Origin: Candidatus Saccharimonadota bacterium
GTDB lineage: Bacteria; Patescibacteriota; Saccharimonadia; Saccharimonadales; Saccharimonadaceae
Length of the DNA: 64,000 nucleotides
Direction: 5' to 3'
Assembly (NCBI GenBank): GCA_024402895.1
Contig: JAKSSX010000002.1
Span: 1-64,000, forward strand
How positions within the stretch are numbered: position 1 is the first letter of the stretch; each line of letters starts with the position of its first letter. The translations under genes were made by a program, and so were the position numbers. The notes beneath the pieces were generated by a model, which ran no database searches, was not told the origin of the DNA, and saw nothing but the letters and a program-made list of their open reading frames with translations. Below are positions 11,692 to 41,342 of the stretch, piece after piece.

Positions 11692-12891
11692 TTACCACCA
11701 TCCTTGTGCGCGCCAGCGACTATAAGCGTTTGCCCAGCTTCCATAACGGCTAGTGGCGTAGCCGGTAGCGGAACGTAATTGACAAACAGGGTCGTTTACC
11801 CAGTTACCGCCACAGTCATTAATTAAACGTGATTGACTTGTCTGATATAGACCAAAATATCTACCGTTAGATGCATTTGGGCGCCAGCTAGATTCATGAG
11901 AGATAATGTAATTCACATAACCATAATCGGAAGCAGAAATACCAGCCGCAGCCATCCAATCTTCGTGTGAACCAGATGGAAGATTTAGCTTCATGCCAAC
12001 TTTAACTTCCTGAGTAACCGGCTCTTTAGTAACGATTACTGATAATACTTTACGAGATAGCTCTTTACCATCCTTCATATTAACTTCGTATGTTACAGTT
12101 TTCTTACCAAGTTCACCATATTTAACAATACTGCGCTTTCCATACTCCATGTCGTAATCCTGAATAGTCTTCTCACTATACGAAATGTTTTCTTCCGCAG
12201 TAATTGTCTGAACACCTTGTGGCTGAATAATGAAATGCATACCGTCGCTAATCTTAGTTTTTAGCGGCATTGAAACCCAGTTCTTCTCTGTATTAGTATC
12301 AATTTCCTGCTCTTTTAGTAGCTCATTAATTGTATTTTTCTGCGTACGAACTGTGACATTTTTGCCATAAAAATTAATATTTACGGTCTTCGCGCGCTTA
12401 ACGCTATAAGCAGTAGTTTTACCGCTTTCGAGGAGACTATTATATGGAACCAGTTCTACTACATCCGCATCTAACAGCTCAACACCCGCATCTGTCGCGA
12501 TTTCTTCCGGGGTCGTACTTGCCGTGCGAACATGCTTTTTATGATAACCATCCAAAACAATAACATCTCTGGCACGGTAAATATTAATGTTGAAATCTTC
12601 TGATGCAATTTTTTCATCTAATGAAGGCTCAACTTTATCGCCAGAATTAAGGACAATTTCAGCGCGTAATAAAACTTCACGCACGGTAGTAGCATCAGAA
12701 CGAATATTTATCTTTTTATCTTCGTCATATACGGAGATATAATGGACGGATTTGTCGTCATTTACTCCCTCAATACTCTCACTAGCAGCAAAAGCATAGC
12801 CACAAAAAGTCGAGACACCAAAAACAATAGCAAAAATAAAGGTTAACAATGCTGTAAGAGAGTTTTTAGCTCTCGTTTTATGCATTTTCAT
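11692..12891 (-). CDS. Secreted YabE/Rpf-like cell-wall hydrolase (DUF348 + G5 + lysozyme-like domain)
   Basis: A 399-residue exported protein. An N-terminal hydrophobic segment (about 14-36) acts as signal or anchor. Up to three ubiquitin-like DUF348 modules follow (about 50-92, 108-150, 168-212), then a G5 domain (about 228-300) and a C-terminal lysozyme/transglycosylase-like domain (310-399) with the candidate catalytic Glu333 in IISHESSW and the FGLYQTSQSRL and YGSWANAYSRW segments. The architecture matches YabE, RpfB and aggregation-promoting-factor-type peptidoglycan hydrolases of Gram-positive bacteria. Two Cys (360, 370) could form a disulfide. A TATAAT box lies eight bases before the first ATG, so the message is nearly leaderless. 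Confidence 0.9.
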   Translation of the reverse strand: MKMHKTRAKNSLTALLTFIFAIVFGVSTFCGYAFAASESIEGVNDDKSVHYISVYDEDKKINIRSDATTVREVLLRAEIVLNSGDKVEPSLDEKIASEDFNINIYRARDVIVLDGYHKKHVRTASTTPEEIATDAGVELLDADVVELVPYNSLLESGKTTAYSVKRAKTVNINFYGKNVTVRTQKNTINELLKEQEIDTNTEKNWVSMPLKTKISDGMHFIIQPQGVQTITAEENISYSEKTIQDYDMEYGKRSIVKYGELGKKTVTYEVNMKDGKELSRKVLSVIVTKEPVTQEVKVGMKLNLPSGSHEDWMAAAGISASDYGYVNYIISHESSWRPNASNGRYFGLYQTSQSRLINDCGGNWVNDPVCQLRSATGYATSRYGSWANAYSRWRAQGWW

Positions 12892-36919: not shown

Positions 36920-36995
36920 AGGGGCGTAGCTCAGTTGGTAGAGCACTGGTCTCCAAAACCAGGTGTCGCGAGTTCGAGTCTTGCCGCCCCTGCCA
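36920..36995 (+). tRNA. trnW: tRNA-Trp (anticodon CCA)
   Basis: A complete cloverleaf. The acceptor AGGGGCG (36920-36926) pairs with CGCCCCT (36985-36991), the anticodon stem-loop CTGGT-CTCCAAA-ACCAG carries CCA, the T arm is GCGAG-TTCGAGT-CTTGC, the discriminator is G and the 3' CCA is encoded. It reads UGG only, so it gives no support for UGA decoding as Trp. A terminator hairpin follows 15 bases later. Confidence 0.96.
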
Positions 36996-37008: not shown

Positions 37009-37036
37009 GGTCGAACTAGCAATAGTTCGATTTTTA
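37009..37036 (+). terminator. Terminator of tRNA-Trp
   Basis: TCGAACTA (37011-37018) pairs perfectly with TAGTTCGA (37023-37030) around a GCAA loop, followed by T5. Confidence 0.88.
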
Positions 37037-37056: not shown

Positions 37057-37085
37057 TTGACTCTTTGTCAAATCTATGGTAAAAT
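37057..37085 (+). promoter_or_regulatory. Strong promoter of structured RNA 1
   Basis: TTGACT at 37057-37062, exactly 17 bp, then TAAAAT at 37080-37085, preceded by an extended TGG. Predicted start near 37092. Confidence 0.85.
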
Positions 37086-37091
37086 AAGAAT

Positions 37092-37405
37092 ATAGCCTGA
37101 TTTAACGGATCAGGCACCACATATAGCAAACTCAAAATATCAGGGCCTGATGGGGGCCGATTACCTACTGATATTCTTGGGTTTTATGGGCTCCTTTAAA
37201 TGCGATTAAGAATAATGCAGTAACTAGCTACGAGATAAGTATAAAAAGGTTAAGGTGAACAATAGCAGAATGACATAGAAATTAATATTGAGGAAAGCTA
37301 GCCTCAACAATCCGCGCATTATTCTTTCGCAACTGGCGTGCAACTACATTTCTTGCCGCCAACAACCTCGCCCAGCGCCGATAAAAAGGTGCTGGGTTTT
37401 TTTAT
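37092..37405 (+). ncRNA. Structured non-coding RNA 1 (about 310 nt, family not recognised)
   Basis: A self-contained transcription unit between tRNA-Trp and RNA 2, with a near-consensus promoter, a terminator and no credible reading frame. Seen stems: GCCTGAT/ATCAGGC (37095-37101 with 37109-37115); a 16-bp helix 37128-37143 with 37168-37184 (one bulged C) capped by a GGCC hairpin; an 11-bp helix AAGAATAATGC/GCATTATTCTT (37208-37218 with 37316-37326), extended by TGCG/CGCA, closing a roughly 97-nt domain; inside it TTGAGG/CCTCAA (37288-37293 with 37302-37307), whose loop AGCTAG (37296-37301) can pair with CTAGCT (37224-37229) as a pseudoknot; and TGGCG-GCAA/TTGC-CGCCA after it. Signature motifs of RNase P, tmRNA and SRP RNA were looked for and not found. 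Confidence 0.82.
37371..37405 (+). terminator. Terminator of structured RNA 1
   Basis: CCCAGCGCC pairs with GGTGCTGGG (one G-T pair) around GATAAAAA, followed by T7. Confidence 0.9.
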
Positions 37406-37412
37406 TTTTATA

Positions 37413-37421
37413 TGTTATAAT
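37413..37421 (+). promoter_or_regulatory. Extended -10 promoter of structured RNA 2
   Basis: TGT-TATAAT with TATAAT at 37416-37421. The -35 region is within the RNA 1 terminator tract. Predicted start near 37428. Confidence 0.7.
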
Positions 37422-37427
37422 ACGTTT

Positions 37428-37723
37428 AGTTGCTTCATTTCGAGGTTTATATACGTGCATACACGAACTATGCAATCTACAGCACCTCTTTATTAATCGA
37501 GAGAAGCACTCGTAACTTATCAACCGACTTCGGACCGACTTTTCAAGAAAAAGTAATGAGTCGTAAGACTCAAAAGGTATACCAGTAACGCAGAACATAC
37601 AATAAGAACAGATTTGGGATTTTTATAAGAATGCACCAGTCAGTCCGAAGTCAATTTTTGCTCCTATCGTGCACCATGCATTAGGAGCCCCCTTAAGGCC
37701 TCTCTTCGTAGAGGCCTGTTTTT
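37428..37723 (+). ncRNA. Structured non-coding RNA 2 (about 295 nt, family not recognised)
   Basis: A second complete unit directly after RNA 1, with an extended -10 promoter, a terminator and no credible frame. Seen stems: GAGGT/ACCTC (37442-37446 with 37484-37488) enclosing TGCATA/TATGCA (37456-37461 with 37469-37474); a long-range helix GACTTCGGAC/GTCCGAAGTC (37526-37535 with 37643-37652), extended past a 1x1 mismatch by GACT/AGTC, closing about 105 nt; inside it TGAGTC-GTAA-GACTCA (37557-37572, a GNRA-type loop); and after it GCTCCTA/TAGGAGC (37660-37666 with 37682-37688) with an inner TGCA/TGCA. The layout, one long-range closing helix with an inner hairpin and a 3' hairpin before the terminator, recalls RNA 1, though no sequence similarity is obvious. 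Confidence 0.8.
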
Positions 37724-37724
37724 A
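37695..37724 (+). terminator. Terminator of structured RNA 2
   Basis: AGGCCTCT (37696-37703) pairs with AGAGGCCT (37710-37717), followed by GTTTTT. Confidence 0.9.
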
Positions 37725-37792: not shown

Positions 37793-39550
37793 ATGTTTAA
37801 GATTTTCAAAAATTTCCACTGGAAAGATTTAGTTTTTCTTTTTAGCGGTATTATCTTGGTCGCCGTTCAAGTCGGTCTCGAATTAAAGATGCCAGACTAC
37901 ATGTCTGAAATCACAAAGCTCGTTCAAACAGAAGGTAGCGAAATGAGCGATATTTTACTCAATGGCGGCTGGATGCTTGCCTGCGCATTAGGTAGCTTTA
38001 TCGCAACGGTTGGCGCCGGTTTTTGTTTCGCGACTGCAAGTGCTCGCCTTTCAATGAATACGCGCAAAAAGCTCTTCGATAAAGTCGAAAGCCTTGATAT
38101 GCATGAGATTAAAAAGTTCTCAACCAGTAGTCTCATTACTCGCTCGACAAACGATATTACCCAGATTCAGATGTTCGTTGCTATGGGTGCACAGATGCTT
38201 ATTCGCGCTCCAATGACTGCTATTTGGGCAATTATTAAGATCTCCAACAAGAGTTGGCAATGGAGCACCGCTACCGGCATTACCGTCGTAGTCCTTCTTT
38301 CTATTATGTTCACCGTTATGGCAATTGTTATTCCACGCTTCAAGAGAGTCCAGAAGCTCACCGATCGTGTTAACGGAATTACTCGCGAAAACCTTACTGG
38401 TATTCGCGTTATTCGCGCTTTTAATGCCGAAAAATATCAGGAAAAGAAGTTTAGTAAGACTAACAATGAGCTCACGAACACGCAGCTCTTCACTTCCCGC
38501 ACTCTATCCGTCGTTTCGCCAATCATGTATCTCGCAATGAATGGCCTTACGGTCATTATCTACACGATCGGCGCATACTTAATTAGCGAAGCAACCGCAT
38601 TCGATAAACTCACCATTTTTAGCGACATGGTCGTCTTCTCTACTTACGCAATGCACGTCATCATGAGCTTCCTTTTCGTCGCATTCGTTTTGATGATTCT
38701 TCCACGCGCACAGGTTTCTGCATCACGCATTAACGAAGTCATGAAAACAAAAATTTCAATCAAAGACGGTAACTTTGATGACGAAACCGCAGAACGTGGC
38801 ACCGTCGAATTTCGCAACGTTTCTTTCAAATATCCAGACGCAGAAGACTATCTTTTGAAAGACATTTCTTTCCGCGCTAATACTGGTGAAACGGTAGCCT
38901 TCATTGGCTCCACCGGCTCAGGCAAAACTACTCTTATTAATCTCGTTCCACGTTTCTATGATGCAACTGAGGGTGAAGTTTTCGTCGACGGCGTAAATGT
39001 TCGCGATTATAAATTGAAAGAACTACATAACCGCATTGGCTACGTTCCTCAGAAAGCCGTCATGTTTAATGGCACCGTCACTTCAAACGTCGCTTATGGT
39101 GATAATGGTTGCGGTAAAAAGAGTGAAGAAACTATCAAAAAAGCCATCAAAGTTGCTCAGGCAAAGAACTTTGTTGAGAAAATGGATAAAGATTACAAGG
39201 CTCATATCGCTCAGGGCGGCACCAACGTTTCTGGTGGTCAGAAACAGCGCCTCGCAATCGCACGCGCAATTGCACGTGATCCAGAAATCTACATCTTCGA
39301 CGATAGCTTCTCTGCGCTCGACTATAAGACTGATGCAACTTTGCGTCATGAACTCAAAAAGCATACTGGCGGCGCAACAAATCTCATCGTCGCTCAACGT
39401 ATTGGTACGATTATGCATGCAGATAAAATCATCGTGCTCGACGAGGGCAAATGCGTCGGCATGGGTACTCACAAAGAATTGTTAAAGAATTGTAAGGTCT
39501 ATAAGCAGATTGCACTCTCTCAGCTAACAAAGGAGGAACTCGATGTTTAA
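37793..39550 (+). CDS. Heterodimeric ABC exporter, half with degenerate catalytic site
   Basis: This 585-residue half-transporter has six transmembrane helices (about 15-320) and a C-terminal nucleotide-binding domain. Walker A is GSTGSGKTT, the signature NVSGGQKQR is canonical, and the switch His is replaced by Gln (AQRIG). After Walker B (IYIFDDSFSALD) the catalytic Glu is Asp, the typical change in the non-canonical member of LmrCD/BmrCD/TM287-288-type exporters. It overlaps the partner gene by eight bases. Substrate unknown; multidrug or lipid/peptide export is plausible. Confidence 0.93.
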   Translation: MFKIFKNFHWKDLVFLFSGIILVAVQVGLELKMPDYMSEITKLVQTEGSEMSDILLNGGWMLACALGSFIATVGAGFCFATASARLSMNTRKKLFDKVESLDMHEIKKFSTSSLITRSTNDITQIQMFVAMGAQMLIRAPMTAIWAIIKISNKSWQWSTATGITVVVLLSIMFTVMAIVIPRFKRVQKLTDRVNGITRENLTGIRVIRAFNAEKYQEKKFSKTNNELTNTQLFTSRTLSVVSPIMYLAMNGLTVIIYTIGAYLISEATAFDKLTIFSDMVVFSTYAMHVIMSFLFVAFVLMILPRAQVSASRINEVMKTKISIKDGNFDDETAERGTVEFRNVSFKYPDAEDYLLKDISFRANTGETVAFIGSTGSGKTTLINLVPRFYDATEGEVFVDGVNVRDYKLKELHNRIGYVPQKAVMFNGTVTSNVAYGDNGCGKKSEETIKKAIKVAQAKNFVEKMDKDYKAHIAQGGTNVSGGQKQRLAIARAIARDPEIYIFDDSFSALDYKTDATLRHELKKHTGGATNLIVAQRIGTIMHADKIIVLDEGKCVGMGTHKELLKNCKVYKQIALSQLTKEELDV

Positions 39551-41342
39551 CGGTGGAAATAAAGCTGGAAAAGTTCCCGGCAAGAGTAAAGATTTTAGTG
39601 GCGCCATCAAACGCCTTTTCCGTGAGCTTCGCAATAATAGAATCCTAGTCCTTATCGGCATCGTTTTAGCTGTAGGCGGCTCAGTTCTAACAATCATTGC
39701 ACCAGATAGACTCTCTGATTTAATTGACCAAATTACAATCGGCCTAATTCCTGGCATGTCGATTAATTTCGACGAAGTTTGGGGTATTATCGCGCTCATC
39801 GCGACCCTCATTGCATCTTCCGCTTTGCTTGAGCTTGGCGAAGGCCTATTAATGACTCAGGTTTCAAATACTTTCGCGCGCGATTTACGTGAACGTATTT
39901 CAAAGAAGATCAATCGCTTGCCTTTGAAGTATTTCGATCACAACCAGACCGGCGATGTTTTGTCTCGCGTCACAAACGATGTCGACACTGTCGCTCAAGG
40001 TCTAAGCAATTCCCTTTCTACGCTCATCAGTGAAGCTGCTCTTATGATCGGTGTCGTAATTATGATGTTCATTACGAACTGGACAATGGCATTGGTTGCC
40101 GTCGCGGCGAGCCTTATTGGCTTTGTTGGCATGGGTGCAATACTCGGCAAATCTCAGAAGTATTTCGCAATGCGCCAGCAAGAGCTTGGTAAAATTAATG
40201 CTCATATTGAAGAAACTTATTCAAATCTTAATGTCGTCAAAGTTTACAACGGCAAAGCTGAGAGTGACCGCAAGTTTGACATGCTCAACAAGCGCGTTTA
40301 CACCGCAAACCAGCGCAGCCAGTTCCTTTCTGGTTTAATGCATCCAATGATGGCCTTCATCGGCAACTTTGGTTACGTCGCAGTCTGTGTTACCGGTGCT
40401 ACCCTAGTTACTAACGATGTTATTACTTTTGGTGTTATCGTTGCCTTTATTAGCTACGTTCGCCTCTTCACTTCTCCACTTTCACGCATCGCGCAGTCTA
40501 TGTCTAGCCTTCAGACCGCAGCAGCAGCAGGCGAACGCGTGTTCGAGTTTATCGACGAAGATGAATTACTCGATCAGTCCAAGATTAAGAGCAATATCAA
40601 TAAAGATAACATTCGTGGCGATATCGAGTTCGATCATGTTAAGTTCGGCTACGACGACAGCAAGAAACTCACCATTAAAGATTTCTCCGTCAAGGCAAAA
40701 GCTGGCCAAAAAATTGCTATCGTCGGCCCAACCGGTGCCGGTAAAACTACGATGGTTAACTTGTTGATGAAGTTCTATGAAATTAATTCTGGCGACATTC
40801 GTATTGACGGCATTTCTACTCATGAGATGACGCGTGAAGACGTTCATTCTCTATTCACAATGGTCCTTCAGGATACATGGCTATTCTCTGGCACTGTTCG
40901 CGATAACATCATCTACAACCGCCGTAGCATTAGCGATGATGAGATTATGAAGATTTGCGATACCGTCGGTTTGACGCACTTCATTAAGACTCTTCCGAAA
41001 GGTCTTTCTACTGAAATTAGCGAGAATGATTCGATTTCTGCTGGTCAAAAGCAGCTTCTTACTATCGCTCGCGGCATGGTTGAAGATGCGCCATTCCTAA
41101 TTCTCGACGAAGCAACATCGAACGTCGATACTCGCACGGAAGAATTAGTTCAGAAAGCTATGGACAAGCTCATGGAAGGCCGCACCTCATTCATCATTGC
41201 GCATCGCCTTTCAACCATCAAGAATGCCGACCTTATTCTCGTTATGAATGAAGGTAATATTGTCGAGACTGGCTCCCATGCGCAGCTCATGAAGCAGAAC
41301 GGTTTTTATGCCGATCTCTACAACTCGCAATTTGCATTATAA
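39543..41342 (+). CDS. Heterodimeric ABC exporter, canonical-catalytic half
   Basis: The 599-residue partner of the preceding gene: six helices (about 35-335), Walker A GPTGAGKTT, Walker B with the normal catalytic Glu (FLILDEATSNVD) and switch His in IAHRLST. Its signature is altered (SISAGQKQL for LSGGQ). The distribution of intact and altered motifs across the two subunits gives one competent and one degenerate ATP site, as expected for a heterodimer. No terminator is visible before the GT4 gene 63 bp downstream, which has its own -10 box. Confidence 0.93.
   Translation: MFNGGNKAGKVPGKSKDFSGAIKRLFRELRNNRILVLIGIVLAVGGSVLTIIAPDRLSDLIDQITIGLIPGMSINFDEVWGIIALIATLIASSALLELGEGLLMTQVSNTFARDLRERISKKINRLPLKYFDHNQTGDVLSRVTNDVDTVAQGLSNSLSTLISEAALMIGVVIMMFITNWTMALVAVAASLIGFVGMGAILGKSQKYFAMRQQELGKINAHIEETYSNLNVVKVYNGKAESDRKFDMLNKRVYTANQRSQFLSGLMHPMMAFIGNFGYVAVCVTGATLVTNDVITFGVIVAFISYVRLFTSPLSRIAQSMSSLQTAAAAGERVFEFIDEDELLDQSKIKSNINKDNIRGDIEFDHVKFGYDDSKKLTIKDFSVKAKAGQKIAIVGPTGAGKTTMVNLLMKFYEINSGDIRIDGISTHEMTREDVHSLFTMVLQDTWLFSGTVRDNIIYNRRSISDDEIMKICDTVGLTHFIKTLPKGLSTEISENDSISAGQKQLLTIARGMVEDAPFLILDEATSNVDTRTEELVQKAMDKLMEGRTSFIIAHRLSTIKNADLILVMNEGNIVETGSHAQLMKQNGFYADLYNSQFAL

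Follow-up and report, generated by a model that had tools for sequence, protein, structure and literature searches.

An unusual stretch of noncoding DNA lies between a tRNA-Trp gene and an ABC exporter in the 785-kb genome of a Saccharibacteria bacterium (G000; contig G000:C12). We consider that its first gene, hereafter unit 1, is the first member of a tandem, lineage-specific array of trans-acting sRNAs, which probably block ribosome-binding sites in an Hfq-free manner. The features of the locus within the 64,000-nucleotide stretch analysed here (the window) are given in Table 1; for comparison we used relatives that are, for the most part, MAGs of 'Candidatus Saccharibacteria' from gut and rumen.

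Table 1. Features of the unit 1 locus, in window coordinates
Feature	Position	Strand	Basis or remarks
tRNA-Trp (CCA anticodon)	36920-36995	+	Syntenic marker upstream of the locus; Rfam, ARAGORN
Terminator-like hairpin between tRNA-Trp and unit 1	37009-37032	+	Terminator scan
Promoter of unit 1, sigma-70-type, TTGACT-17-TAAAAT	37057-37085	+	
Unit 1, noncoding RNA gene, ~310 nt	37092-37405	+	
P1, 5' hairpin (GCCTGAT/ATCAGGC)	37095-37115	+	Fold prediction
P2, outer stem enclosing the pseudoknot hairpin	37128-37143 with 37168-37184	+	One bulge/internal loop
P3, hairpin GGCC-TGATGGG-GGCC	37144-37158	+	4/4 pairs with two-sided changes
Pseudoknot, loop GGG with CCT	37152-37154 with 37164-37166	+	CCT lies 3' of invariant ATTA (37160-37163)
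Anti-Shine-Dalgarno-like exposed stretch GGGCTCCTTTAAA	37188-37200	+	CUCCUUU predicted unpaired, probability ~0.98
P4, long-range helix	37201-37205/37327-37331 and 37208-37218/37316-37326	+	Closes multiloop; 8/8 pairs with two-sided changes
Intrinsic terminator hairpin of unit 1	37370-37397	+	7-T run
Extended -10 promoter of unit 2, TGTTATAAT	37413-37421	+	Read from sequence
Unit 2, second structured noncoding RNA	about 37428-37724	+	Terminator 37696-37717; z -4.67
ABC exporter half-transporter (MsbA/multidrug type)	37793-39550	+	Syntenic downstream marker
Second ABC exporter half-transporter	39543-41342	+	

By computation, the unit 1 family has a promoter, a terminator, a conserved architecture and an enrichment in anti-Shine-Dalgarno (anti-SD) motifs. 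An initial annotation of this DNA had claimed the promoter and the T-tailed terminator hairpin of unit 1, and both could be located. The promoter matches the consensus at 10 of 12 positions, with a TG ahead of its -10 box; as shuffled sequences give 3.3 promoter-like sites for the 1-kb region, in which one was found, this match is not significant alone. Terminator-like sites in the 1-kb region are significantly frequent (six found versus 0.6 expected). No SD-led ORF of at least 12 codons was found in unit 1, in agreement with the annotation, which saw no coding frame here. Shuffled sequences average -72.6 +/- 5.6 kcal/mol, whereas unit 1 has a minimum free energy of -96.2 kcal/mol (z -4.25); not one of 100 shuffles was as stable.

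Searches at the DNA level returned no full-length homologue of unit 1 among 44 relatives of the genus (45 genomes with G000). The downstream exporter is present in all 45, and through its synteny we reached homologues in seven relatives, upstream of the same exporter; Rfam places tRNA-Trp upstream in 11 of 12 extended homologous loci. The unit-1 RNAs of the resulting eight genomes (G000, G020, G002, G043, G041, G013, G033 and G012) share pairwise identities of 58-77%, and have in common P2, P3 with a GGG loop, an invariant AUUAC, a 3-bp pseudoknot and P4, with UCCUUU standing between the P2/P3-pseudoknot domain and the long-range P4 in six of the eight. Near-consensus promoters in the homologues sit where that of unit 1 does. 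The conserved architecture of unit 1, as modelled, is P1, P2 with an H-type pseudoknot hairpin, CUCCUUU, P4, a 3' hairpin and the terminator; P2 and P4 are the 16-bp helix and the 11+4-bp long-range helix that had already been read from the window.

The stem sequences differ while the pairing stays: the fold is kept by compensatory changes. Because plain MAFFT could not align the core, it was aligned by hand at a fixed length (alignment A3), and the resulting pair counts thus lean towards structure: 98.2% of cells are paired, versus 58% after shuffling and no more than 55% after sliding. On this hand-fitted alignment, 18 of 21 pairs have two-sided changes, with a covariation score of 1.16 versus 0.27. 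Since A3 is hand-made, we turned to models with held-out genomes. Model R3, trained on five genomes without G000, G020 and G002, gave the sites of these three genomes its three highest ranks in 68.6 kb (E-values of 0.0012 for G002, 0.0037 for G020 and 0.11 for G000). Model R2, trained without G013, G033 and G012, ranked the G013 site first (E 0.0037) and did not recover those of G033 and G012, both of which have long inserted hairpins, so that R2 and R3 together placed four of six held-out copies at the top. A covariance model, R1, which is weak and was run with strict filters on the 45 genomes of the genus and 199 of the family, found the closest copies only, and under these settings neither a second copy of unit 1 elsewhere in G000 nor any outside the genus. 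The assemblies used are MAGs, and unit boundaries were delimited semi-manually.

The pairs of the pseudoknot vary by G-C/G-U only, and its support therefore rests on recurrence. In homologues the partner of GGG is CCC, CCU or CUC, and a descriptor without fixed stem sequences matches all eight unit-1 RNAs and none of 28 other units, against a background of 12/800 shuffles and 12/800 random genomic windows (1.5%). It is this pairing that has support, instead of the AGCTAG/CTAGCT pseudoknot of the initial annotation: the complementarity between 37296-37301 and 37224-37229 is present, but no equivalent was seen in homologues. Similarly, the GCCTGAT/ATCAGG repeats recur where they had been described, but their reading as a palindrome or dimer contact is disfavoured because the GGCC within the ATCAGG-G-CCTGAT palindrome pairs with GGCC 37155-37158 in a covarying hairpin.

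What could such a scaffold present? Positions 37191-37200 (CUCCUUUAAA) resemble the 3' tail of 16S rRNA. Counted over 36 units in 20 genomes, TCACCTCCTTTCT hexamers were observed 93 times versus 19.7 +/- 5.6 expected from dinucleotide shuffles (maximum 34 in 200 sets), a result of which the effect size, and not the z-score, matters, because hexamer counts overlap and the genomes are related, and for which the units were delimited after the motif had already been noticed. The reference here is the usual bacterial anti-SD, taken because the 16S tail is absent from the ~96% of the genome examined. The reverse complements, i.e. SD hexamers, are not enriched (16 observed versus 15.3 expected). Anti-SD density is 10.4/kb in units; in G000, intergenic DNA of the same strand has 1.3/kb and coding DNA 1.1/kb. 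Anti-SD sites in units are more unpaired than average (0.58 versus 0.43). ACCTCC also occurs in three RNAs found later, outside the 36-unit set (L166, L167 and L168). CUCCUUU is missing at its usual place in unit 1 of G043 and G041, the latter having ACCTCCTTTT elsewhere, and for G020 and G002 the ensemble prediction puts part of the motif in pairs (0.25-0.6 unpaired). As for what such motifs might meet, AGGAG precedes 105 of 534 ATG starts in G000, versus 43 in a reversed control; by this count, SD sequences are in use. A target scan in G000 returned generic SD sequences as the best complementarities, with no specific target standing out. Elsewhere in this genome, a ~320-nt noncoding unit (about 18260-18593 of L148; G000:C1, minus strand, promoter 98593) has a 10/12 promoter, a fold of -112.8 kcal/mol and a TTACCTCC stretch, and is possibly a further anti-SD RNA.

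Unit 1 is followed directly by unit 2, which has its own promoter and terminator, folds better than shuffles and contains a 10-bp helix (GACTTCGGAC/GTCCGAAGTC); its diverged counterparts in G020 and G002 have a UAUCCUCCC hairpin. Neither this tandem unit nor the anti-SD motif featured in the initial annotation. In relatives, the region upstream of the exporter holds one to five noncoding promoter-terminator units of ~170-430 nt each, with four in G015 and five in G030, every one with a near-consensus promoter. Other members of the genus have at this place a small membrane-peptide gene (L019-L021) or coding DNA, so that only some of its members have the array. Many units have UUUUU in a hairpin or loop at the 5' end, e.g. 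GGCGTTTTTGGTGCC, GTCTTTTTGAC and GGTTTTTGGGC, as noted in units of L007-L010, L012, L014, L015 and L018. The nearest non-Saccharibacteria relatives of the first exporter protein come from gut Bacilli and Clostridia MAGs, at up to ~70% identity, which suggests horizontal transfer or mis-binned contigs.

We posit that the array occupies the interval between tRNA-Trp and the ABC exporter in one gut/rumen Saccharibacteria genus, with units that would be transcribed independently. The folded domains could act as a scaffold that holds the 16S-tail-like CU-rich stretch single-stranded, leaving it to pair in trans with the SD regions of mRNAs and so to lower their translation. This would proceed without Hfq, which was detected in none of the 45 genus genomes. 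Tandem duplication and divergence may then have allowed copies to drift to other targets or expression settings. The likely targets would be SD-led mRNAs elsewhere, and less so the adjacent exporter: in many relatives the exporter -10 box adjoins the ATG (upstream ends L009, L012, L014-L018 and L023-L025), so that its mRNA looks leaderless and its own SD is an unlikely target. One could go further and imagine the array as a broad brake on SD-led mRNAs that spares leaderless ones, such as that of the adjacent exporter, in these Hfq-less epibiotic bacteria; we regard this extension as a long shot, although, if true, a single RNA locus could move the cell between programmes of growth and of survival.

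The same exposed motif could be read differently, with the RNAs serving not as antisense regulators but as decoys or scaffolds, much as CsrB and RsmZ act as sponges. They would bind a ribosome-associated or RNA-binding factor whose normal site is the 16S 3' tail or some other CU-rich sequence. Close copies of the 16S tail do occur in some units (ACCTCCTTTCTAAAG in G030_u4, GGATCACCTCC in a hairpin loop of G033), many have several CU-rich sites per RNA, and the elaborate conserved pseudoknot and P4 suggest a role beyond that of a pairing site. However, the register of the motif varies (CUCCUUU, ACCUCC, CCUCCC), which fits SD pairing better than a single protein site, and there is no known candidate protein; we find decoys unlikely, if worth keeping in mind. 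It is less likely again that the units act in cis, as leaders or attenuators for the exporter operon: they do always lie directly upstream of it in the same orientation, but each is closed by its own terminator, their number ranges from one to five, and the exporter of many relatives has its own promoter with the -10 box beside the ATG. That the region encodes mRNAs for short peptides serving the exporter, such as leaders or bacteriocin-like ones, might be entertained given the exporter gene downstream and the membrane-peptide gene at this place in other genus genomes, but it seems highly improbable, considering that no ORF is common to the eight unit-1 RNAs, that unit 1 of the window lacks an SD-led frame of at least 12 codons, and that the compensatory changes keep stems and not codons.

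Known RNA families offer little competition to a trans-acting sRNA. At gathering scores, Rfam 15 found nothing but tRNA-Trp in the window and no family but tRNA in 12 homologous loci; on its own strand, unit 1 had no match at E-values up to 10. With this search, which the annotation had also recommended, and with the many compensatory changes that preserve the stems at a single syntenic locus across eight genomes, its proposal of a lineage-specific structured ncRNA holds up well. It had likewise seen no hallmarks of RNase P RNA, tmRNA or a T-box, and we concur: the genome has separate genes for RNase P RNA (RF00010, G000:C10:128-480) and tmRNA (RF00023, G000:C8:11081-11447; in the window ARAGORN found nothing but tRNA-Trp), while a T-box or other leader is rejected in view of the missing Rfam match and the unit's own promoter and terminator. 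Nor does unit 1 match 6S RNA (RF00013), having a multidomain pseudoknotted fold and not a single rod with a central bubble. A strongly diverged housekeeping RNA (6S, RNase P, tmRNA or SRP) would suit the length, the free-standing gene and the lack of a 6S match in G000, but is barely credible next to these findings, the varying copy number, a conserved pseudoknot and anti-SD foreign to 6S, and a better 6S candidate at about 76061 on G000:C12. The latter (L153, about 11850-12061, minus strand, promoter 76061) is a noncoding unit of ~190 nt, rod-like in its fold, whose TTGACA-17-TATAAT promoter is perfect, and, with no Rfam match of its own, is a candidate for the 6S RNA of the lineage.

The unit 1 family shares two traits with C-rich anti-SD sRNAs, namely an independent promoter with a Rho-independent terminator, and an enriched unpaired CU-rich motif. 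A tandem sRNA array with an anti-SD-like motif is reminiscent of the CcsR/cuckoo RNAs of Alphaproteobacteria, reportedly treated by Reinkensmeier and Giegerich in 2015. The anti-SD-like loop motif of CcsR/cuckoo RNAs is CCUCCUCCC, which is not in unit 1, where CUCCUUUAAA is found instead. Furthermore, CcsR1-4 are cotranscribed and processed from a DUF1127 (ccaF1) operon in Alphaproteobacteria (PMC10253847), whereas here promoter and terminator are separate for every unit, structure and phylum are different, and the neighbours of unit 1 are tRNA-Trp and an ABC exporter rather than a DUF1127 gene. Closer in likely function are the LhrC sRNAs of Listeria monocytogenes, multicopy genes with their own promoters whose several exposed CU-rich (UCCC-type) motifs cover SD sites, and which act on lapB without need of Hfq (PMC4132741). 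The units share with LhrC the multicopy genes, own promoters and exposed CU-rich motifs, their mode of action being predicted; whilst LhrC copies are near-identical, ~111-114 nt long and made of two stem-loops, the units are ~170-430 nt, highly diverged, and combine a pseudoknotted domain with a long-range helix. No homology to LhrC was found for unit 1 (no Rfam match on its strand), and we would say that the units resemble LhrC in their presumed mode of action and are unrelated in structure. RNAIII, RsaE, SprD and FsrA of low-GC Gram-positives also block SD sequences with a C-rich unpaired UCCC motif (PMC4132741); the units have such a motif and are predicted to block SD sequences, with no homology to these RNAs detected (no Rfam match).

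In a limited literature search, no work on regulatory RNAs of Saccharibacteria/Patescibacteria or other CPR bacteria came to light. Divergence can put an RNA family beyond the reach of ordinary DNA searches and yet leave it recoverable by synteny and covariation, and, as this held for the unit 1 family, other CPR RNAs may be missed. In this locus one has an sRNA family whose fold is conserved, whose binding site is plausible and whose copy number varies naturally (1-5). Set beside the known systems, it suggests that Hfq-free anti-SD regulation, familiar from low-GC Gram-positives, arose separately in the candidate phyla.
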